Below, in pieces: positions 2,395 to 39,226 of a DNA stretch of 43,750 nucleotides. Made by a program: the position numbers and the translations under genes. The notes beneath the pieces were generated by a model that was not told the DNA's origin, did no database searches, and worked only from the letters and a program-made list of their open reading frames with translations. Source of the DNA: Thermomicrobiales bacterium (GTDB lineage Bacteria; Chloroflexota; Chloroflexia; Thermomicrobiales; CFX8); contig JAMLIA010000022.1 in the NCBI GenBank assembly GCA_023954495.1, positions 1 to 43,750 on the forward strand. The letters run 5' to 3'. The stretch's first letter is position 1. The number at the start of each line of letters is the position of its first letter.

Positions 2395-3444
2395 TTACAC
2401 CGCTGAGGATGGCGGTGGGATGACGCGACGTTCACGGTGCGCGGCCAACTCGCGATAGGTCGTGACCTCCGGGTTAACCTGGCAGTGCGGCGGGTCGCCG
2501 TTGAGGACGTTGGTCACGTTGACGAGCGCCAAGTAGAGCGCCCGATCAAATGCTTCTTTCGTCGTCCCGCCGATATGTGGTGTCAGCACAACGTTGGAGA
2601 ACTCGGTGTACGGGTTGTCCGGATGCGGCTCGAACTGGAAGACATCCAGCCCAGCACCGGCGATCCTGCCTGATGCTAACGCACCAACCAGCGCCGATTC
2701 CTTAACGATCGGGCCGCGCGCCGTATTGATGAGGAACGCCGACGGCTTCATCAGATCGATCGCGCGCTCGTCGATCAGGTCGCGTGTGTGATCGTCAAGC
2801 GGGCAGTGCAGCGTCACGTAATCAGAACGCTTCAGCACCTCATCGAACGACATGTATGAGATGCCGTGCTCGTTGGCGAACGTCAGATCCCACGCGATAT
2901 CGGCCGCCAGCACGCGCATACCGAACGCCTTGGCGAGCAGCGCCGTCGACTTGCCGACGCGGCCGAGGCCGACGATTCCGATCGTCTTGCCCCACAGCTC
3001 GGTGTTAGCGTCGGTCGGAATACGATCGTAAGGGAACCACTCGCCGTCGCGGATCGATTGATCGACAACAAGGACGTTCCGCGCGAGATTGACCATCATT
3101 CCGAAGGCAAGCTCAGACACGGAATGGTTGTTGCACCCTGCGCAAATCGCGACCGCGATGCCGCGTCGATTCGCTTCTTCGACGTCAATGTGATCGTAGC
3201 CAACGCCGCCGGCACTGACTACCTTGAGGTTCGGCGCGGCTTCCATGACACGCGGCGAGATCCACTCCAGGCCGGTGATAATGCCCTCTGCGTCGGCGGC
3301 AAGGCGACACAGTTGCTCCTGATCGATGGGATACTGCATTTCCGCATCGATCATTTCGCAGTTCCGCCTCGACAGAAACTCTTGCAGGAACTCGCTATTC
3401 CCTTCGCGGAACTTGCGGGACAGGACCAGCACCTTGTGCGCCAC
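2395..3444 (-). CDS. D-isomer-specific 2-hydroxyacid dehydrogenase (phosphoglycerate dehydrogenase-like)
   Basis: NAD-dependent oxidoreductase of about 349 residues interconverting a 2-hydroxyacid and a 2-ketoacid. The Rossmann motif GIVGLGRVGKS lies in the middle of the chain. The family signatures INTARGPIV (active-site Arg) and TPHIGGTT (catalytic His) follow in the expected order. It lacks the ACT/regulatory C-terminal extension of long SerA forms, so serine biosynthesis is not assured; glyoxylate or hydroxypyruvate reduction are alternatives. The GTG at 3444 is preferred over an upstream ATG because GGGGAGG lies seven bases before it. The gene is divergent from the aminotransferase to its right, with 290 bases between starts. 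Confidence 0.87.
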   Translation of the reverse strand: MAHKVLVLSRKFREGNSEFLQEFLSRRNCEMIDAEMQYPIDQEQLCRLAADAEGIITGLEWISPRVMEAAPNLKVVSAGGVGYDHIDVEEANRRGIAVAICAGCNNHSVSELAFGMMVNLARNVLVVDQSIRDGEWFPYDRIPTDANTELWGKTIGIVGLGRVGKSTALLAKAFGMRVLAADIAWDLTFANEHGISYMSFDEVLKRSDYVTLHCPLDDHTRDLIDERAIDLMKPSAFLINTARGPIVKESALVGALASGRIAGAGLDVFQFEPHPDNPYTEFSNVVLTPHIGGTTKEAFDRALYLALVNVTNVLNGDPPHCQVNPEVTTYRELAAHRERRVIPPPSSAV

Positions 3445-3629
3445 CGCGTTGCCTCCCCAACTTTGCGTTACGGTCTTCATCAGATGGCGCATTGTAGCAT
3501 CGGTTTGATTAAGGCCGGGGTCGCATCTGTCCTTTCTGTCGGCTACAACTCGATATTGCCGATTCGGCAGTCATCATGCCTGATTGTTACCGAAATGCTC
3601 CTGCAGCAGGCGACTTCCGCGTCATGTAG

Positions 3630-3638
3630 TGCTATACT
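3630..3638 (+). promoter_or_regulatory. Extended -10 promoter of the aminotransferase gene
   Basis: TGC followed by TATACT (3633-3638) is a textbook extended -10 element about 97 bases upstream of the aminotransferase start. The -35 at 17 bases spacing is weak (GCGACT). The leader also holds GTACGTAC at 3684-3691, a shorter relative of the palindromes at 27149 and 36243. Confidence 0.5.
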
Positions 3639-3734
3639 GGCCAACAGAAGAGATTCAGATGGCGTTTCATGTGCGACTGCAAAGTACGTACGCGGCTTTT
3701 GCGCATGTATCGCCGGATACGCAAGGAGTCGGGC

Positions 3735-5129
3735 ATGGTACAGAGTCCGGTGGGCGGCAAACCGAAGACGGCCGAAGAGTACGCGCAGAGCGCACTTGAG
3801 CACGTCTGGATCCACTCAGCCAACTGGCAGGAGCTGGCGACCCAGAAGGGTATGAAGGTCTTCGATCACGGCAACGGCGCCCTCCTCTACGATGTCGATG
3901 GCAAGGAATATATCGACGGCATCGCCGGTCTGTGGGTGGTGAACGCGGGACACGGTCGCGCCGAGATCGGCCAGGCTATGGCCGAGCAGGCTGCGAAGGT
4001 CGCCTACGTTTCAGCCGCCAACTACACGACGGTTCCGGCTGTCGCGCTCGCAGAGACGATCGCTGAGATTTTGCCGGGTGATCTCAATCGTCTGTTCTTC
4101 TGCTCCGGTGGCTCTGAGGCCGTCGAGTCGGCGATGAAGATCGCCAAGCAGGTCCAGGTGATGCGCGGATTCCCGAAGCGCTACAAGATCATTGCCCGCC
4201 GCGGTTCGTACCACGGCATGACCTACGGCGCGATGAGCCTCACCTCGGCACGCAACGAGACCTATTTCGGTCCGTTCATGCACGGCGTGTACCATGTGCA
4301 GTCGCCGAACAACTATCGCCCGCAGTTCCCCGGCCTGTCCGGTGAGGCGGACGACATCGCCTGTGCCAACGCGTTCGAGGCCGAGATCGAATACCAGGGC
4401 CCCGAGACCGTCGCGGCGATCATTGCCGAGCCGATCTCGACCGCCAACGGTGTTCAGGTTCCGTCAAAGGCTTACTGGCAGCGGCTGCGGGAGATCTGCG
4501 ACAAGCACGGTGTTCTTCTGATCGCCGACGAGGTCATCAACGGTTGGGGCCGCTCGGGCAAGTACTTCACGATCGAGCACTATGATGTCGTTCCTGACAT
4601 GGTCACGATGGCCAAGGGTCTCTCGTCGGGTTATGCGCCGGTCGCTGGCGTGGCAGTTCGTGACTCGGTCTTCGACGGCTTCAAGGAGAAGGGCGATGTC
4701 GCCCTCGGTCACCTGCTGACCTTCGGTGGCCAGTCGGTTGCCTGCGTCGCAGCGCTCGCCAACATCGACATCTTTAAGCGCGAGAATCTGGTTCAGCAAT
4801 CGGCTGACAAGGGCGAGTACCTGAAGAAGCAGCTTGAGGAGCTTCTCGTCCACCCGACTGTTGGTCAGGTTCGCGGACTCGGTCTGATGTGCGGCATCGA
4901 AGTTGTCAAGAACAAGGAAACCAAGGAGAAGTTCGGCAAGGACTCGAAGTTCATGAAGCGAGTCTCCGAGCACTTCGATGACAAGGGACTGCTGACCCGC
5001 GCCTGGGACACCATTCACTTCGCGCCGCCGTTCGTCATCACGACCGACGAGATTGATCGCATGATCACCATCGTCGATGAGTCGCTGACAGCGGCCGAGA
5101 AGGAATTCGCTGACGAGATCGCCCAGTAG
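3735..5129 (+). CDS. Class III pyridoxal-phosphate aminotransferase (omega-aminotransferase family)
   Basis: PLP enzyme of 464 residues in the fold-type I class III group (ornithine/omega-amino acid:pyruvate transaminases). The PLP lysine is Lys294 in TMAKGLSSGYAP. The preceding DEVINGWGRSGK motif carries the cofactor-pyridine Asp, and FCSGGSEAVESA near residue 120 binds phosphate. Length matches the family (440-470). The ATG at 3735 is preferred over in-frame upstream codons because AAGGAG (3723-3728) is well spaced before it. It is a single-gene transcription unit: an extended -10 promoter lies upstream and a strong intrinsic terminator 24 bases after the stop. The amino donor cannot be told from the sequence. 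Confidence 0.9.
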   Translation: MVQSPVGGKPKTAEEYAQSALEHVWIHSANWQELATQKGMKVFDHGNGALLYDVDGKEYIDGIAGLWVVNAGHGRAEIGQAMAEQAAKVAYVSAANYTTVPAVALAETIAEILPGDLNRLFFCSGGSEAVESAMKIAKQVQVMRGFPKRYKIIARRGSYHGMTYGAMSLTSARNETYFGPFMHGVYHVQSPNNYRPQFPGLSGEADDIACANAFEAEIEYQGPETVAAIIAEPISTANGVQVPSKAYWQRLREICDKHGVLLIADEVINGWGRSGKYFTIEHYDVVPDMVTMAKGLSSGYAPVAGVAVRDSVFDGFKEKGDVALGHLLTFGGQSVACVAALANIDIFKRENLVQQSADKGEYLKKQLEELLVHPTVGQVRGLGLMCGIEVVKNKETKEKFGKDSKFMKRVSEHFDDKGLLTRAWDTIHFAPPFVITTDEIDRMITIVDESLTAAEKEFADEIAQ

Positions 5130-5153
5130 CGACCAATCGTTGAGCGTAACAGC

Positions 5154-5192
5154 CCGACCGACGGAGCAATCCGTCGGTCGGGTTTTCTTTTG
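5154..5192 (+). terminator. Strong rho-independent terminator
   Basis: A perfect 13-base GC-rich stem (5154-5166 with 5171-5183), a GCAA tetraloop and the tail TTTTCTTTT. It terminates the aminotransferase transcript. In the opposite direction no T-run follows, so it is one-directional in appearance. Confidence 0.92.
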
Positions 5193-5208
5193 CATGTCGG
5201 TCGCGGTG

Positions 5209-5901
5209 CTACGTACCGAATAATCGGTCGCCCGCATCGCCGAGACCGGGCAGAATGTAGCCGCTGTCGTTGAGCCTGTCGTCGAGCGCAGCGGTCACGA
5301 TCTGCACCCCGTCGTCGGCTTGTAGAACGGTCATTGCACCGAGAGGTGCCGTGACGAGGGCGACTACGTCGATTCGCCCTTCAAACGATCGCCGTACTTC
5401 GGCAATCACTCGCGCAGTCGATCCGCCAGTCGCCACCATCGGATCGAGCACAACGACCCGATCGGCCCAGCCGGACTTGTGCGGCAGGTTGGACGTGTAG
5501 ATCGCCGGTGCCAGCGTCTCCTCATTCCGCCGAATCCCGACCTGGTAGAGCGGTGCATCCGGCAGCAGTGACCGGAATGGGGCCGAGAAGAGCATCCCGG
5601 CGCGCAGGATGACGACGCCAGCGATGCGCTCTGCCGGACGAGCGATGTCGATCGGCGAGCCGTCAAATCCGGCCACTGATTCGTGCTGCAGCCGCAGTTC
5701 GGATAGCGCCATCCACAGCGTGTGCGCGGCGAGGACCTCTCCGGCTTGGCCAAACTCCAGGGACTTCGTCGCGCGATCGCGGAGCCGCCCGAGATGTATC
5801 TTCGCCAGCGGGTCGTCGTTTATCTGGACTCGACCGGTCGCGAGCACGCTTTCGCGCGATGGCTGCGCGCGTCTTCCCATCGCGCTTGTGTCATCTGACA
5901 T
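5209..5901 (-). CDS. upp: Uracil phosphoribosyltransferase
   Basis: Pyrimidine salvage enzyme making UMP from uracil and PRPP. The PRPP-binding loop DPMVATGGS and the C-terminal uracil-binding signature ending in PGLGDAGDRLFGT are both present. At 230 residues it is about 20 longer than the usual 208-210, the extra length being a polar N-terminal extension. The ATG at 5901 has GAGGA seven bases upstream. It lies 15 bases after the unknown gene to its right and is probably the last gene of a minus-strand operon with that gene and the MFS transporter. Confidence 0.95.
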   Translation of the reverse strand: MSDDTSAMGRRAQPSRESVLATGRVQINDDPLAKIHLGRLRDRATKSLEFGQAGEVLAAHTLWMALSELRLQHESVAGFDGSPIDIARPAERIAGVVILRAGMLFSAPFRSLLPDAPLYQVGIRRNEETLAPAIYTSNLPHKSGWADRVVVLDPMVATGGSTARVIAEVRRSFEGRIDVVALVTAPLGAMTVLQADDGVQIVTAALDDRLNDSGYILPGLGDAGDRLFGT

Positions 5902-16599: not shown

Positions 16600-17682
16600 C
16601 TACTTCTTGGCGGTCCAGCGTGGCGGCAACGGCTCCCGCTCCAGGTAGGCGAGAATCAGATCAACGCATTGAACCAGCTCCGGCTCGGTCACCATCTCGT
16701 TCGGAGAATGGGTGTACCGGGTCGGCATCGTTAGCAGAACCGTCTCAATTCCCCGGCGGGTGAGCTCCGCGCCATCACTCCCATAGTTCTGGAAGACAGC
16801 ATGCTGCACGGGAATCCCGGCAACTTCGGCTGTTTCAGCCATCGCCATGGTCATGCGATGCGAGTAGTGACCCGATGAATCCTGATGGACGATGATCGGA
16901 CCACCGCCAAGCTTTGCCGGATGCGTCTCCGGGCGCGTCCCCGGAACGTCGCCACACAGGCCCACGTCCAGGTTGATGGCATAGGAGAAGTCGGCGATTT
17001 CCGGAATGCTCGACGCTCCCAGCAGTCCGTTCTCTTCCTGAATCGTCGAACCAACCCAGAGGGTGTGCTTCAACTTGCTGATGTCGGCACGCTCAGCCAC
17101 CGATGTTGCGATCGAGAGCGCGGCGCGATTGTCCATCGCCTTGCCCATGATCGCATCGCCCAGGCGTCGCGTTTTTGAGTTCACGACGATGCGGCTACCG
17201 GGCCGGATGCCGAGTCCCTCAACGCGCTCGCGCGTCATCAGGCCGAGATCAACAAACCAGTCGGCCCATTCAAAATGATCTTTCTGGTCAGCGGCACTGA
17301 TGACGTGGCCGCTCGCATAGACCAGCTGGCCGTCGATCGGACCCTCGTCCGACATAACCAGAACCGGCTGGTTGATTGGGACATAGCGCAGGGCAGGACG
17401 TCCGCGCGTATCCCTGCCGGCCGGCCAGACGCGGAGCAGCCCGTTGGCGGTGATCGATGTCACCATCAAGGTCAGTTCATCGCCGTGGGCCAGGATGATG
17501 ATGTTTGGTCCCTGACCGCCCACCCGCGCGATGACGTTGCCCACTCCGGTAATCTGAACATCGTCGGTGATCGTCGACCAGTGATCGGCGCACCATTCAT
17601 GGACGAGGTCTTCCTGCCCGGTTGGTCCCGGAATTTCCGTCAATGTCTTGACGAGGTCGTACATCGCCGTTGGCTTACCCAC
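16600..17682 (-). CDS. M42-family metallo-aminopeptidase
   Basis: Co-catalytic dinuclear metal aminopeptidase of 360 residues of the FrvX/TET aminopeptidase type. Visible metal-site motifs are ILAHGDE (the His and Asp of the usual HMDE, with Gly for Met), AMDNRAA, IQEENG (catalytic Glu pair) and NLDVG. A C-terminal RYTHSPNEM holds the last His. The GTG at 17682 has GAGGGG eight bases upstream. It is one of two M42 genes in this window; the other at 36793 has the classical HMDE. It converges with the ABC exporter gene. Confidence 0.88.
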   Translation of the reverse strand: MGKPTAMYDLVKTLTEIPGPTGQEDLVHEWCADHWSTITDDVQITGVGNVIARVGGQGPNIIILAHGDELTLMVTSITANGLLRVWPAGRDTRGRPALRYVPINQPVLVMSDEGPIDGQLVYASGHVISAADQKDHFEWADWFVDLGLMTRERVEGLGIRPGSRIVVNSKTRRLGDAIMGKAMDNRAALSIATSVAERADISKLKHTLWVGSTIQEENGLLGASSIPEIADFSYAINLDVGLCGDVPGTRPETHPAKLGGGPIIVHQDSSGHYSHRMTMAMAETAEVAGIPVQHAVFQNYGSDGAELTRRGIETVLLTMPTRYTHSPNEMVTEPELVQCVDLILAYLEREPLPPRWTAKK

Positions 17683-18673: not shown

Positions 18674-20359
18674 CTACCGGACCGCAGCGACGAGCAGAAC
18701 GACCGACATCAACGCACCGAACTGCAGATGCAAGCCTGCCGTCTTGCGTAATGCGGTATTGAGCGTGCCGACGTCCTGCCGGTGCATGACGATGCGCACA
18801 AGCTCGATTGCGCGCGGGATGGTGAGAAACACGATCAGGATACCGGCCGGCAGCAGACCGCCGAGGGCGACGAGGGCGACAGCGATGTAGGAACCGACGA
18901 GGAGCGCGACATATTCGCGTCGCGCCCAGCGGTAGCCGATGTACGTCGCTAGCGTCCGCTTGCCGGCGTCGGTGTCGTCGCGAATGTCGCGGATGTTATT
19001 AGCCTGCAGGATGGCCGTCACGAGCAATCCGACCGGGATCGACAGCGCGACCGCCTCCCAGGAAATGGACTGCGCCTGCACATAATACGCACCAACGACC
19101 AGCACTGGACCCATGAAGATGAAGACGGTCGCCTCGCCAAGCGCGACATATCCCAGAGGCTTGGGGCCGCCGGTGTAGAGGTACGCGGCCAGAAGGCTGG
19201 GAATCGCAAACAGCAGGACCGGCCATCCGACTCGGGCGACGATGAGGAGCCCGATGATGGTTGCGATGGCAAAGAGCGCCAGACCGAACCACAGGATAGT
19301 TTTTGGGCTTATGAGGCCGCGCTGGATGAAGCCGCCGTTGCCGCGTGAGATCGGCTTGTCTGCGCCGTTGCGGAAGTCGTAATAGTCGTTTACGAGGTTG
19401 CTGCCTGCGTGAACGAGCAGCGAGGCCAGAATGACCATCACGAACAGGCTCAGCGAGAATGCGCCGTCGATCGAGGCGAGGAGCGTGCCGAGCAACGCCG
19501 GGATGATTGAGGCGGTGAAGGAGAAGGGCCGCGTCGCCATGAACCAGTTGCGGACAGCCTGCGGCACCGGAATGCTGAAGCGGCGTCGCTCGGGCGCGCG
19601 CCACGGCATCGCGACCCGTTCGACTTCGTCCATGACGAGATTCAGTAGCCAGCCGAGCATGCCAGTGACGATCAGTCCAACATACATCTTCTCGATCGCG
19701 AACGTCTGATACGAGTTCCAGATCAGGTAGCCGATGCCATTCTTCGCGGCGAGGAACTCGGTGCCGACGATCACCAGCAACGAGAACCCGAGCGCGAGGC
19801 GCAGACCGGAGAAGATCCCCGGCAGTGCTGCAGGAACCGCGACCGTGCGAATACGCTGCAACACACTCGCGCCCGCGTCGCGTGCGACATCGAAGTACCC
19901 CTGTTCGATCTCCAGGACTGCGCTCATTGTCGACAGCACGACCATGAACAGGACGCTGACAGCAACCATCGCGACCTTCGAAGTCTCGCCGATGCCGAAG
20001 ATGATGATGACGAGCGGCAGAATGGCGATCTTTGGAACTGCGAAGAACGCTGCTGCGATCGGTGACACGACAGCACGCACCGGCCACCACAACCCCATCA
20101 GCACACCGATCAAAACTCCGGGCACGGCGGCGATGACGAACCCGGCCGCGACCCGTAGCATGCTGATCCGCAGATCGTCCCACAGCTGCCCGGACGAAAT
20201 CAGCTTTCGTGCTGTCGTTTCGAGCGATGTCGGCGGCGGGAAGAAGAGCGGGTTGATCGTTTGTGTTCGGGCCAGGATTTCCCACGTCACAAGCACGACA
20301 ACCGGCCCGAGCAGGGCCAGGATGAATCCCAGCCAGCGACGGCTCTCAGCGCCTCTCAT
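18674..20359 (-). CDS. ABC importer permease fused to a MenA/UbiA-type prenyltransferase
   Basis: Single uninterrupted reading frame of 561 residues with two complete membrane domains. Residues 1-255 are a NitT/TauT/SsuC-type permease with the cytosolic EAA loop at about 159-190 (VARDAGASVL...PAALPGIFSGLRLA). Residues about 268-561 are a UbiA-superfamily prenyltransferase: the first aspartate motif NDYYD is at 324-328 and the second, DIRDDTDAGKRT, at 458-469, both facing the cytoplasm in this family. The pattern matches MenA (1,4-dihydroxy-2-naphthoate prenyltransferase), and each half has its normal full length. Met274 begins the second domain but has no ribosome site before it. The start overlaps the stop of the ATPase gene (ATGA). 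Known: each family separately. Inferred: import of a prenyl acceptor coupled to its prenylation. Confidence 0.9.
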   Translation of the reverse strand: MRGAESRRWLGFILALLGPVVVLVTWEILARTQTINPLFFPPPTSLETTARKLISSGQLWDDLRISMLRVAAGFVIAAVPGVLIGVLMGLWWPVRAVVSPIAAAFFAVPKIAILPLVIIIFGIGETSKVAMVAVSVLFMVVLSTMSAVLEIEQGYFDVARDAGASVLQRIRTVAVPAALPGIFSGLRLALGFSLLVIVGTEFLAAKNGIGYLIWNSYQTFAIEKMYVGLIVTGMLGWLLNLVMDEVERVAMPWRAPERRRFSIPVPQAVRNWFMATRPFSFTASIIPALLGTLLASIDGAFSLSLFVMVILASLLVHAGSNLVNDYYDFRNGADKPISRGNGGFIQRGLISPKTILWFGLALFAIATIIGLLIVARVGWPVLLFAIPSLLAAYLYTGGPKPLGYVALGEATVFIFMGPVLVVGAYYVQAQSISWEAVALSIPVGLLVTAILQANNIRDIRDDTDAGKRTLATYIGYRWARREYVALLVGSYIAVALVALGGLLPAGILIVFLTIPRAIELVRIVMHRQDVGTLNTALRKTAGLHLQFGALMSVVLLVAAVR

Positions 20360-21159
20360 GACGCCACCGCCGTCGGTGGCGCGGCAGATTCATCGCGCAG
20401 GAGCGACCAGATGTGCAGAAATAGCGTTGCGAACGTCGGGTCGGAGCGCACGGTCTCGATCGAGCGTGGTCGGGCGAACGGAACATCGATGTCCGCCTTG
20501 ATCGTGCCGGGGCGCGAGCTCAGGACAATGATGCGGTCCGCCAGAATCATCGCTTCGTCGATTGAGTGCGTCACGAACATCACCGTCTTGCCGCTCTCCT
20601 CCCAGATGCGAAGGAGCTCGGATTGCAGGATCAGGCGTGTCTGCTCATCCAGTGCGCCGAACGGCTCGTCCATAAGCAACAGCTCGGGATCAACAGCGAA
20701 CGCCCGGACGATTGCGACGCGCTGCCGCATGCCTTCTGAGAGCTGCGAGGGATAGGCATACAGAAACTCGCCGAGCCCGACCTGACGGAGTAACCGCTCT
20801 GCAATCGCTTCGCGCTCCTCGCGCGAAACGCCGCGCATCGCCAGGCCGTAGGCGGCGTTGTCGAGTACGGTCATCCACGGGAAGACGGAACGGCCCTGGA
20901 AGACCATCGCTCTCAGCGGCTTGTCATCCGAGTTGCGCTGAATCGCGATGCTGCCAGCGGTCGGCGAAACCAAACCGGACACAGCTCTGAGTAGCGTGCT
21001 CTTCCCGCAGCCGGACGGGCCAACGATTGCGCAGAACTGACTCTCCGGAATCGCCAGCGAGACGTTGTCAATCGCGGTGACCACCGAGCGCGCGAGTGGA
21101 AAGGTCACCTCCAGACTGCTGATATTGACTTTGTGGCTCGCGCTATCCGGCGAGTACAT
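20356..21159 (-). CDS. ABC importer ATPase, NitT/TauT (SsuB) type
   Basis: ATPase subunit of 267 residues. Walker A GPSGCGKST, Walker B LLLMDEPFGALD and the switch His in VTHSIDEA are intact. The signature reads LSEGM rather than LSGGM, a substitution at the third position. It is the middle gene of a three-gene unit: the binding lipoprotein ends 14 bases upstream and the fused permease starts inside its stop codon (ATGA). GGAGGGA precedes the ATG. The family imports nitrate, sulfonates, taurine, thiamine pyrimidines or flavins. The permease fusion next door suggests another substrate here, by inference. Confidence 0.93.
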   Translation of the reverse strand: MYSPDSASHKVNISSLEVTFPLARSVVTAIDNVSLAIPESQFCAIVGPSGCGKSTLLRAVSGLVSPTAGSIAIQRNSDDKPLRAMVFQGRSVFPWMTVLDNAAYGLAMRGVSREEREAIAERLLRQVGLGEFLYAYPSQLSEGMRQRVAIVRAFAVDPELLLMDEPFGALDEQTRLILQSELLRIWEESGKTVMFVTHSIDEAMILADRIIVLSSRPGTIKADIDVPFARPRSIETVRSDPTFATLFLHIWSLLRDESAAPPTAVAS

Positions 21160-21173
21160 CGTCCCTCCGGTGG

Positions 21174-22274
21174 TTATTGTTCAGTGGCGACGCCGATTTC
21201 CTTAACTGCATTTTCGGCAAACGAGCGGTCGATCAGCGAGTTGACATCGAGCGGTTCGTCGTATTCGAGCAGGCCGCGATCAGCGAAGAATGTCTGCAAG
21301 GTGGCGAGATCGTCTGCGTGGATGTCGCCGTTCGGTTCGCAATAGGTGCGCGACGCCTCGCGAATCAGGTCCGGCGGCACATTCGTATGGGCTTCCAGGA
21401 TCTCCAGGTTCTCGTCGCTGTCCCAGTCGTCACCCCACAGATCGCGGCAGCCGCGCAGCATGCCGGCCATGAAGCCGGTCACCAGGTCGGGAGAATCAGC
21501 GGCGAAATCCGGATTGACCCACACGAATGTCGGCTGGAAGTTCTCCGGGAAATTCGCGTCGAGGCGAACGATCAACCCCTGCTGCTCGGCTTGCGTAGCG
21601 ATCGGCTCACCGAGCATCGCGCCATCGAGCGCGCCGGACGCCAGCGCCGCCGGCACGTCCGGGAATGGGAGCGTCTGGAGATCGACATCGCCGATAGTCA
21701 ATCCATCTGTTTCCAATGCGGCGTTGAGCCAGTACTCAGTCGCGCCGCGCGCATTCACCGAAACCTTCTTGCCCTCCAGGTCACCCGGTGTGGTCAACTC
21801 GCCGCTGTCGTAGCGTTCCTTGGAGACGACGAGCGGCGTCGCTGCCTCACCGCGCTCGAAGTGCAGCGGCGAGATGAGTTTTAGATCGATGCCGCGCGCT
21901 ACGGCGTTGAAGAAAGCTGGCCCGGTCCCACCGATGCCGATGTCAAAGTCGCCGTTGGCAGTCAGGACGACCATGTCAGATCCACCGGCAAGTGGCTCCA
22001 GGTTGACATCGAGGCCGTATTCCTCGAAGTAGCCCTTGTCGTGCGCGAGAGCGACCGGCGCGTAGATCAGCACCGGGATGAATCCGACTGTCACGGGAGT
22101 CAGTTCGGCGGGTGTCGATGTGTCGGCAGTCGCGTCGGTAGAGGAAGCAGTCGTCGCGGTCGAATCCGCTACTGGCGTCGATGTAGGATCCGAATCACCG
22201 CCGCACGCAGCGACCAGCATTCCCAGCATCACCAGAATCGTGAGCATACCAGCAGCACGGGTTCGCGTTCTCAT
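21174..22274 (-). CDS. ABC importer substrate-binding lipoprotein (NMT1/ThiY-like)
   Basis: Binding protein of about 366 residues anchored outside the membrane. A signal peptide ends in the lipobox VAAC with Cys24, followed by a Ser/Thr/Ala-rich linker. The mature part begins VTVGFIPVLIYAPVALAHDKGYF, the standard opening of NMT1/SsuA-like proteins; the motif ANGDFDIGIGG and the segment DVPAALASGALDGAMLGEP are also typical. The start at 22274 is the ATG just before the signal peptide; the longer open frame to 22631 would overlap the divergent ferredoxin gene. GAAGGGA lies 12 bases upstream, a little far. First gene of the operon with the ATPase and the permease-prenyltransferase fusion. Ligand unknown. 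Confidence 0.9.
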   Translation of the reverse strand: MRTRTRAAGMLTILVMLGMLVAACGGDSDPTSTPVADSTATTASSTDATADTSTPAELTPVTVGFIPVLIYAPVALAHDKGYFEEYGLDVNLEPLAGGSDMVVLTANGDFDIGIGGTGPAFFNAVARGIDLKLISPLHFERGEAATPLVVSKERYDSGELTTPGDLEGKKVSVNARGATEYWLNAALETDGLTIGDVDLQTLPFPDVPAALASGALDGAMLGEPIATQAEQQGLIVRLDANFPENFQPTFVWVNPDFAADSPDLVTGFMAGMLRGCRDLWGDDWDSDENLEILEAHTNVPPDLIREASRTYCEPNGDIHADDLATLQTFFADRGLLEYDEPLDVNSLIDRSFAENAVKEIGVATEQ

Positions 22275-36792: not shown

Positions 36793-37872
36793 TTAATCGG
36801 TCTTAGCCCCGTACCGATACGAACCCTCGTGCGCGTGCTGCAGATAGGCAGTCAGCAAGTCGATTGCGGCCTGAATGTCAGCAGTCGAGCACATCTCGTT
36901 GACGGTGTGGACGTAGCGCGTTGGGATCGACAGCGTGACCGCCGGGACACCGGTGCGCGTGCGCTGGACTGCGCCAGCGTCGGTTCCGCCGCGTGGCAGG
37001 ATCTCCATCTGGTGAGTAATGTCGGCGCTCCGGGCGACCTCCCGCATATGCTGGACGAGCGCGTAATTGGAGATTGTTGACGAGTCCATCAGCTTGATCG
37101 CCACGCCGTCGCCGAGCTTCGTCACCGCGTCCTGTTCGGCTGCGCCGGGGATGTCCATCGCGAGCGTCACGTCGAGCGCAATACCGATGTCTGGATCAAC
37201 GCCGTAGGATGAAGTGATTGCGCCACGCAAGCCGACTTCTTCCTGTGTCGTAGCGACCGCGACGATTTCAGCCGATGTTGCCTCGCTCAGGGTGCGCAGT
37301 GCCTCCAGCATCTGGAAGACGCAGATCCGGTCGTCGAATGCCTTGCCGATGACGTTGTTGCCCAGCGGCTCGACAGTGCGCTGCATCGTCACCATGTCGC
37401 CAACTTCGACCAGGGCGCGGACCTCATCGCCGGACAGGCCGACATCGACGTACAGCTCGTCGATGCGCGGTGGCTTTACATCGCCGGGATCGAGCAAGTG
37501 GATCGGCTTGGCCGCTGTCGTCAGCACGCCCAGCAATGTCTCGCCGGCATAGCCGTGGACGAGAACGCGCTGCGCCGGTAACACCCGTGGATCGAAGCCA
37601 CCGACCGGGTGGATGCGGATGAAGCCGCGGTCATCGATGTGCTTGACCAGAAATCCGATCTCGTCCATGTGCGCCAGAATCATGACCCTCGGGCCGCCTG
37701 TACCCTTCTTGACACCGATGACGTTGCCAAGAGCATCAACCGAGATGTCGTCAACGAGCGGACGCATCTCCTCGATGACAATGTCGCGAATCGTGCCTTC
37801 ACGTCCGGCGATGCCTGCAGACTCGCAGAGTCGTTTGAGCAGGTGGAGATTCAATGTATGTCCGCTGGCCAT
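36793..37872 (-). CDS. M42-family metallo-aminopeptidase
   Basis: 359-residue dinuclear metal aminopeptidase (FrvX/YsdC/TET type). Metal and catalytic motifs are complete: LAHMDEIGF, AFDDRI, TTQEEVGLRG (catalytic Glu pair), ALDVTLA, and the final His in RYVHTVNEM. ATG 37872 has GGGAGGG four bases upstream; the open frame to 38190 is an antisense extension into the class V aminotransferase gene and is rejected. It differs from the first M42 protein (16600) in having the standard HMDE. The two are probably paralogues with different specificities. Confidence 0.92.
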   Translation of the reverse strand: MASGHTLNLHLLKRLCESAGIAGREGTIRDIVIEEMRPLVDDISVDALGNVIGVKKGTGGPRVMILAHMDEIGFLVKHIDDRGFIRIHPVGGFDPRVLPAQRVLVHGYAGETLLGVLTTAAKPIHLLDPGDVKPPRIDELYVDVGLSGDEVRALVEVGDMVTMQRTVEPLGNNVIGKAFDDRICVFQMLEALRTLSEATSAEIVAVATTQEEVGLRGAITSSYGVDPDIGIALDVTLAMDIPGAAEQDAVTKLGDGVAIKLMDSSTISNYALVQHMREVARSADITHQMEILPRGGTDAGAVQRTRTGVPAVTLSIPTRYVHTVNEMCSTADIQAAIDLLTAYLQHAHEGSYRYGAKTD

Positions 37873-38050
37873 AAGCCCTCCCTGATAGTGTCGATAACGC
37901 TGCCGAATCGAGATCGTGTCGGACTCTAGCAGCGTCGCGGATGACCCGTCAATCGCGACGCTGCCGTCGATTGCTCCCGACCGATTACACTGGCCGACAA
38001 TTGCGCAATGGTGCGGAATCAACAGTGATCGCAGTGGAGCAGGGGGCGAC

Positions 38051-39226
38051 GTGGCGTTCGATACTTCCAGGGCGCGTGCAGAAACGCCGGGTGCAGACGA
38101 GGTCGTGCATTTCAATAACGCAGGTTCGTCGCTGATGCCGCAGGTGGTGCTGGACGCGCAAATCGAGCATCTGCAGCTTGAGGCACGCATCGGCGGGTAT
38201 GAGGCCGCTGCAGTCGCCGCGGATCGTGTTGGCCACGTCTACGACGCGGCTGCTGACCTGATTGGTGCAAGGCCGGATGAGATTGCCATCATCGAGAATG
38301 CCACTCGGGCGTGGGACATGGCCTTCTACAGCATTCCGTTTCAGCCCGGCGATCGCATCCTGACCGCTCGCGCTGAATACGGTAGCAACTTCATAGCGCT
38401 ACTGCAGGTCGCAGAGCGCACCGGCGCGACCGTCGAAGCCGTGCCGAACGACGAACACGGTCAGCTCTCAGTCTCGGCGCTGCGCGACATGATCGATGAC
38501 CGCGTTCGGCTGATCGCCATGACGCACGTGCCGACAAATGGCGGGCTGGTGAATCCCGCCGCGGAGGTTGGAGCAATCGCGCGCGACGCGGGGATTCTCT
38601 ACCTGCTGGATGCCTGCCAGTCCGTCGGGCAATTGCCGGTCGATGTCGGCCGCATCGGCTGCGACATGCTCTCTGCGACCGGCCGGAAGTATCTGCGCGG
38701 ACCGCGCGGCACCGGCTTCCTGTACGTCCGCCGTGACGTGATTCCCACGCTGGAGCCGCCATTCCTCGACAACCACGCTGCCGTCTGGATGTCCCCGGAC
38801 ACATATACGGTGCGTGAAGACGCCCGACGATTCGAAAATTGGGAGACGAACTACGCGGCCAAGATCGGCCTCGGCGCGGCGCTGGACTACGCAAGTGCTT
38901 GGGGAGTTGACGTAACCTGGGCGCGAATTCAAGTGCTTGCCGACCGATTGCGATCGGGGCTGGACGCTCTTGCCGGCGTCACGGTACGCGACCTCGGTGT
39001 CGAGCGCTGCGGAATCGTCTCGTTCACGGTTGATGGAGTGGGCGGGCAGGACATCAAGGAGCGCCTTGCGGCGCAATCGATCAATGTCACCGTGTCACGA
39101 CCACCATCGACGCGCCTCGACATGGAAGACCGCGGGCTGGCAGAGGTGGTTCGTGCTTCCGTGCACTACTTCAACACTGAGGCGGAAGTGGATCGGTTTG
39201 TACAAGCAATCGACGGTTTGCGCTGA
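38051..39226 (+). CDS. Class V aminotransferase / cysteine-desulfurase-like PLP enzyme
   Basis: About 391 residues. HFNNAGSSLMP at the N-terminus is the typical opening of this fold-type I subgroup. The cofactor Asp is in LLDACQSVGQLPVDV, and the PLP Lys is Lys213 in SATGRKYLRGPRGTGFLYV. No active-site Cys loop of the SufS/IscS type is evident, so a lyase or epimerase role is as likely as desulfuration; the RGPRGTGFLYV form fits the isopenicillin-epimerase-like group. GTG 38051 is chosen with a G-rich site (GGGGG) upstream; the open frame further left is antisense to the M42 promoter region. It is divergent from M42 and 84 bases before the M19 gene. Confidence 0.85.
   Translation: MAFDTSRARAETPGADEVVHFNNAGSSLMPQVVLDAQIEHLQLEARIGGYEAAAVAADRVGHVYDAAADLIGARPDEIAIIENATRAWDMAFYSIPFQPGDRILTARAEYGSNFIALLQVAERTGATVEAVPNDEHGQLSVSALRDMIDDRVRLIAMTHVPTNGGLVNPAAEVGAIARDAGILYLLDACQSVGQLPVDVGRIGCDMLSATGRKYLRGPRGTGFLYVRRDVIPTLEPPFLDNHAAVWMSPDTYTVREDARRFENWETNYAAKIGLGAALDYASAWGVDVTWARIQVLADRLRSGLDALAGVTVRDLGVERCGIVSFTVDGVGGQDIKERLAAQSINVTVSRPPSTRLDMEDRGLAEVVRASVHYFNTEAEVDRFVQAIDGLR

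Follow-up and report, generated by a model that had tools for sequence, protein, structure and literature searches.

A conserved fusion of an ABC importer permease with a MenA-type prenyltransferase in Chloroflexota, encoded in a candidate operon for menaquinone-precursor salvage

A contig from a Thermomicrobiales bacterium (NCBI GenBank assembly: GCA_023954495.1; contig: JAMLIA010000022.1) contains a gene in which an ABC importer permease of the NitT/TauT type runs into a MenA/UbiA-type prenyltransferase. The locus raises the question of whether such a protein is real and, if so, what an importer that carries an enzyme of quinone synthesis might do. The window, i.e. the whole stretch of DNA that was analysed, comprises 43,750 nucleotides (positions 1 to 43,750 of the contig, forward strand). 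A sequence-only reading of this window had proposed that one uninterrupted frame joins the two proteins. We found this to be correct: the frame starts with ATG, encodes 561 aa, has no internal stop and contains both Pfam domains completely (BPD_transp_1, residues 81-244, E 2e-23; UbiA, residues 285-523, E 1e-38). The fused protein passed the NCBIfam model TIGR00751 for menA (146.4 bits vs a cut-off of 102.15), and its UbiA half scored below the narrower PRK06080 MenA equivalog cut-offs (nearest 251 vs 277). Both Asp-rich motifs are intact and lie where the sequence-only reading had placed them, as does the EAA-type loop of the permease half at about residues 157-190. Across the fused homologues (25/25) no substitution occurs at the key residues N321, N324, D325, D328, D334, N454, N455, R457, D458, D462, K467 and T469. 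The features of the fused gene and of its operon partners are listed in Table 1.

Table 1. Coordinates of the fused gene, its parts and the two other genes of the operon in the window.
Feature	Position	Strand	Basis
Fused gene, NitT/TauT ABC permease and MenA-type UbiA prenyltransferase, 561 aa	18674..20359	(-)	Pfam/NCBIfam profiles, homologous fused frames
Permease half, residues 1-255	19595..20359	(-)	Pfam PF00528 81-244; Foldseek
Linker, residues 254-271 (RAPERRRFSIPVPQAVRN), K/R-rich, low pLDDT	19547..19600	(-)	Homologue comparison, AF2 model
MenA-type UbiA half, residues 272-561	18677..19546	(-)	PF01040 285-523; TIGR00751; Foldseek
First Asp-rich motif NDYYD, residues 324-328	19376..19390	(-)	Sequence, homologue alignment
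Second Asp-rich motif DIRDDTDAGKRT, residues 458-469	18953..18988	(-)	Sequence, homologue alignment
ABC ATPase of importer	20356..21159	(-)	PF00005; orthologue precedes permease in most relatives
Substrate-binding lipoprotein, NMT1/SsuA-like, start inferred at MRTRTRAAGMLTILVMLGMLVAAC	21174..22274	(-)	PF09084/PF13379; kept upstream of ATPase

The possibility that the UbiA half is made separately, by initiation within the frame, was considered and rejected. The 20 nt upstream of the possible internal starts ATG 251, GTG 265, ATG 274 and TTG 289 contain no Shine-Dalgarno-like sequence, in agreement with the earlier claim that no ribosome site precedes Met274, and a start at Met274 would remove the conserved W272.

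A search for the same architecture in relatives revealed the fused frame at 25 distinct loci across Chloroflexota. In the family of the source genome it is present in 5/5 genomes with 69-80% full-length identity and a linker of always 18 aa; about 20 further loci lie outside this family. Fusion carriers are found among the genomes of family f3 (G049, G052, G058), f4 (G011), f6 (G267, G394, G399), f8 (G198, G422) and f32 (G208, G352, G370) and among named MAGs of Chloroflexales, Anaerolineae and Caldilineaceae. Over all fused proteins the linker is 12 to 46 aa long. Most of the source genomes are fragmented MAGs, from which an assembly chimera or a sequencing error might arise; the same junction, however, recurs in about 25 independent assemblies of different samples, and the 18-aa linker is constant in 5/5 genomes of the family, which makes such an artefact hardly conceivable. 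As it is found repeatedly in the phylum, the fusion is not explained by a frameshift or by an accident of a single strain. The fusion is real and conserved, and the protein is a genuine transporter-prenyltransferase, as had been suggested.

An AlphaFold2 model of the fused protein, built from the 25 fused homologues, reached a mean pLDDT of 87.7 and a pTM of 0.63, with residues 251-270 in the linker as the weakest stretch between the halves. Foldseek comparisons of the permease half gave a TMt of 0.83-0.85 to the bicarbonate permease CmpB and of 0.71-0.79 to NrtB, and the closest fold to the MenA half was UBIAD1 (TMt 0.82); among the Foldseek matches listed, no single solved structure spans both halves. 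Lysine (K) and arginine (R) are enriched in the linker (7/40 residues, 242-281) and in both Asp-rich loops, and the loops on the opposite face (297-304, 427-436 and 497-506) contain zero K/R. This distribution places the permease C-terminus, the MenA N-terminus and the catalytic loops on the predicted cytosolic side. The modelled topology would permit, rather than show, a hand-over from the permease to the enzyme; the proposal of the sequence-only reading, that a compound could be prenylated on entry, is thus topologically possible.

The gene order on the minus strand is binding protein, ATPase, fused gene, and the last 4 nt of the ATPase gene (ATGA) are shared with the beginning of the fused gene. 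A complete NitT/TauT importer set, consisting of an NMT1/SsuA-type binding protein, an ABC ATPase and a BPD_transp_1 permease, is therefore encoded in one operon. The mechanical ORF of the binding protein extends to 22631, with a likely start at 22274. The genes flanking the operon, for a metallo-beta-lactamase-fold hydrolase and a ferredoxin, are oppositely oriented. Neither the permease nor the ATPase nor the binding protein reached the NCBIfam equivalog cut-off of a functionally named subfamily (taurine, sulfonate, nitrate); the nearest models for the ATPase were TauB/SaoA/NrtCD, all under cut-off. The nearest solved relatives of the binding protein have taurine, nitrate, bicarbonate or pyrimidines as ligands, not naphthoates. 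In f3 Thermomicrobiales a gene for a YaeI/LpxG-like metallophosphoesterase follows the operon (L039:5410-6249 and equivalents, about 15 loci), located immediately downstream of UbiA, or of the permease where UbiA is missing. As a clue to the substrate this phosphoesterase was dropped, because its gene does not adjoin the operon in the window.

In a permease tree, the MenA-linked permeases, fused or not, formed one clade of 44 (SH-aLRT 99), which lies within NitT/TauT apart from the other permeases examined and reaches into Sysuimicrobiota-like MAGs. A more distant ABC permease of family f2 (39-43%, with two binding proteins) was rejected as a member of the same system, as it falls outside this clade. 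Split arrangements are frequent: nine f3 genomes have a permease gene followed by a separate UbiA gene, the UbiA gene does not adjoin the permease in nine other operon genomes including G008, and in the Sysuimicrobiota-like MAGs (L098, L120) the two genes are separate, adjacent or overlapping. Since many relatives keep two separate proteins, the covalent fusion is dispensable for function. Inside the clade of 44 the fused proteins are not one clade (AU test on the permease half, p far below 0.05), so that a single fusion origin is rejected for this half and the fusion must have been gained, or undone, more than once. One locus of this survey, L108 (CAMBFS010000097.1), is titled Klebsiella pneumoniae, and its UbiA gene groups with Candidatus Binatia; it probably represents a mislabelled MAG.

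These arrangements bear on another explanation of the fusion, mere operon compaction by a lost stop, in which the two jobs would be related but uncoupled and co-expression would be the only benefit. We find this account quite possible but short of probable. Fusion would be easy where the split genes are adjacent, with intergenic gaps of tens of bases and with open upstream frames as in G006 and G050, and the variable linker is poorly ordered in the model. On the other hand, the fusion has persisted along long branches in several families, the fused proteins do not form one clade in the AU test, and the genes of f32 and of some Anaerolineae (L095, L096, L167, L169, L170, Anaerolineae-type) stay fused with no recognisable binding-protein or ATPase gene beside them.

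A substrate for the importer is suggested by the quinone metabolism of its carriers. We searched 61 genomes of the order Thermomicrobiales for key enzymes of both menaquinone routes; 27/61 carry the importer operon. MenD and/or MenB were detected in 25/61, a count that includes fragments and single-gene matches, and in 0/27 operon genomes (Fisher 7e-10); most of the genomes are incomplete MAGs and relatives do not count as independent data points, and the absences repeat over many genomes. When only genomes at least 90% complete were counted, 12 had the operon without a route, none had both, three had neither and 15 had a route only (p 1e-5). G007, G013 and G025 are without pathway and without operon. 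The complex I subunit NuoH was found in 28/28 good genomes of the order, as expected of bacteria that use quinones. MqnC-like matches were rejected as evidence of a futalosine route, because those tested (G011) proved to be CofG/CofH of F420 synthesis, and the PF02621 matches of the order are for the most part weak cross-hits to periplasmic-binding folds; the sole true MqnA homologue seen in the order lies on a 5.2-kb contig of G001.

The comparison at class level used 400 genomes drawn evenly from the phylum; 57 of them belong to the class. Neither MenD nor MqnA was found in 7/57, and six of these seven route-less genomes carry the operon (G000, G006, G010, G198, G267 and G422; not G013), compared with 2/50 route-bearing genomes (Fisher 5e-6, kinship ignored). 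The two exceptions both contain the fusion: G394 keeps MenD and a standalone MenA, and G399 keeps MqnA and MqnD homologues. A strict mutual exclusion of operon and quinone synthesis is thus true of the 27 genomes of the order and is broken in the class by G394 and G399. Uptake and synthesis of a vitamin commonly occur in one organism. An importer of 1,4-dihydroxy-2-naphthoate (DHNA) would be expected where DHNA synthesis is missing and quinone use and the last steps persist; 27/27 operon genomes of the order and 6/8 of the class sample fit this expectation, and G394 and G399 do not. Within f6, f8, f32 and genus g21 the contrasts point the same way, and the pattern is therefore not dependent on a single clade. 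The link between the operon and missing quinone routes is strong, not absolute.

MenG is encoded in most operon genomes. In the source genome (G000) it adjoins a second, standalone MenA on contig C14, and G002, G004, G011 and others also hold a separate MenA beside MenG. Since G000 has a second MenA, the substrate of the fused one may be another aromatic. A different aromatic compound would then be imported and prenylated by the fused enzyme into another quinone or lipid, and menaquinone would be left to the standalone menA-menG. Consistent with this, G394 and G399 have the fusion as well as a complete de novo route, and the fused UbiA half scores under the cut-off of the closest MenA equivalogs though over that of TIGR00751. 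We nevertheless consider another aromatic unlikely: the standalone MenA of G000 likewise has no in-house DHNA supply, the operon tracks the loss of DHNA routes, and UBIAD1, the closest fold, is a menaquinone-4 synthase. G267 also argues for a role in menaquinone synthesis. This genome (97% complete) contains MenG and lacks MenD and MqnA; its other UbiA proteins are BchG, decaprenyl-phosphate phosphoribosyltransferase and a high-scoring PF01040 match of the heme-O-synthase type, which leaves the fused protein as the only MenA-like candidate found in that MenG-bearing phototroph. G267 and G198 (L166, L172) are BchG-bearing phototrophic Chloroflexia MAGs, 97-98% complete, with the fusion and MenG, and with MenD/MqnA absent. 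In G008 (L056; 92% complete) the importer operon is present, and no MenA-like protein and no MenG were found over threshold.

We therefore lean towards a salvage role for the operon, which would import a menaquinone head-group precursor, DHNA being the most likely one, through a permease with MenA built in; we consider this role somewhat probable. As MenB is absent, the imported compound must enter the route at DHNA(-CoA) or later, and DHNA is the simplest candidate. The lipoprotein would capture the soluble precursor, and the ATPase would power its passage through a homodimeric permease that bears a MenA prenyltransferase on each C-terminus. The attached MenA would prenylate the precursor to demethylmenaquinone, which would be retained in the membrane and methylated by MenG, encoded elsewhere. 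Bacteria without the Men and futalosine routes could thereby still supply complex I or phototrophy with a quinone. We infer the direction of transport and the hand-over from permease to MenA, and the identity of the substrate from genome context alone. Against a role in DHNA uptake stand the de novo routes of G394 and G399, the second MenA of G000, the three genomes G007, G013 and G025 with neither pathway nor operon, the nine operon genomes in which no UbiA adjoins the permease, the fused genes of f32 and Anaerolineae without adjacent partners and the ligands of the binding protein's relatives. Whether uptake and prenylation are also coupled is a separate matter, and it is this alone on which operon compaction bears; compaction is compatible with the salvage role. 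In a coupled system the permease would hand DHNA to the fused MenA, trapping it in the membrane as a prenyl lipid by a group-translocation-like 'vectorial prenylation', a suggestion that we make tentatively and regard as rather doubtful.

With the known NitT/TauT importers (SsuABC/TauABC/NrtABCD/CmpABCD) the operon shares a binding protein, an ATPase and a homodimeric-type permease with an EAA loop and a CmpB-type fold. Unlike in these importers, the permease belongs to a distinct MenA-tied clade and carries a C-terminal prenyltransferase, and its substrate is probably an aromatic naphthoate instead of an inorganic anion or a sulfonate. The fused MenA half resembles MenA and UBIAD1 in both Asp-rich motifs, in its TIGR00751 score and in its UBIAD1 fold; it differs from them in being joined to a permease and in occurring mostly in genomes without the DHNA-making enzymes. 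Transport and metabolism of a cargo are also combined in one polypeptide in the peroxisomal ABC transporter Comatose, which has acyl-CoA thioesterase activity (PMC6642094); this is a eukaryotic full transporter with the activity in its transmembrane domain, and its enzyme and cargo are unrelated to those of the fusion.

The presence of menA and menG only is the pattern that defines bacteria in need of their neighbours' DHNA (PMC9704088; PMC5738691). Such 'menAG only' cross-feeders, among them Porphyromonas pasteri (PMC9704088) and gut isolates that depend on quinones (PMC5738691), are likewise without the upstream men genes and keep menA and menG; those studies identified no DHNA transporter, whereas a dedicated ABC importer is proposed here. 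A genomic analysis of the gut microbiome from 2016 proposed that transporters of soluble menaquinone precursors must exist and that their annotation and computational prediction are needed (PMC4746308), and a study of quinone growth factors from 2017 noted that transporters for these compounds were undescribed (PMC5738691). A full-text search of the open literature, with subscription journals largely uncovered, gave no described importer of DHNA or of another menaquinone precursor and no UbiA-permease fusion. The transporter-prenyltransferase architecture is thus apparently undescribed so far, as the sequence-only reading had supposed. In a 2026 survey of 26,264 genomes, lineages without a quinone pathway were mostly Bacillota and Chloroflexota; many Chloroflexota lineages seemed to have none, a gap that was left unexplained (PMC13386864). 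The operon is a concrete candidate importer for exchanged menaquinone precursors and would explain part of this gap. It also leads to the prediction that these uncultured bacteria depend on DHNA, which may aid their cultivation.

Two further observations concern single loci. On the 5.2-kb contig of the sister genome G001 (L074; G001:C189:1-5219; locus at 3181-5217), the MqnA homologue is preceded by an ORF in which an MqnD/MqnA-like half is fused with the C-terminal portion of a protein resembling MqnE. The MqnE-like part is without the radical-SAM core. Neighbouring genes encode FkbH-like and methyltransferase proteins, and the tetranucleotide composition of the contig agrees with that of G001. 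The window itself contains two genes for M42-family peptidases, at 16600-17682 and 36793-38190, whose products are 32% identical.
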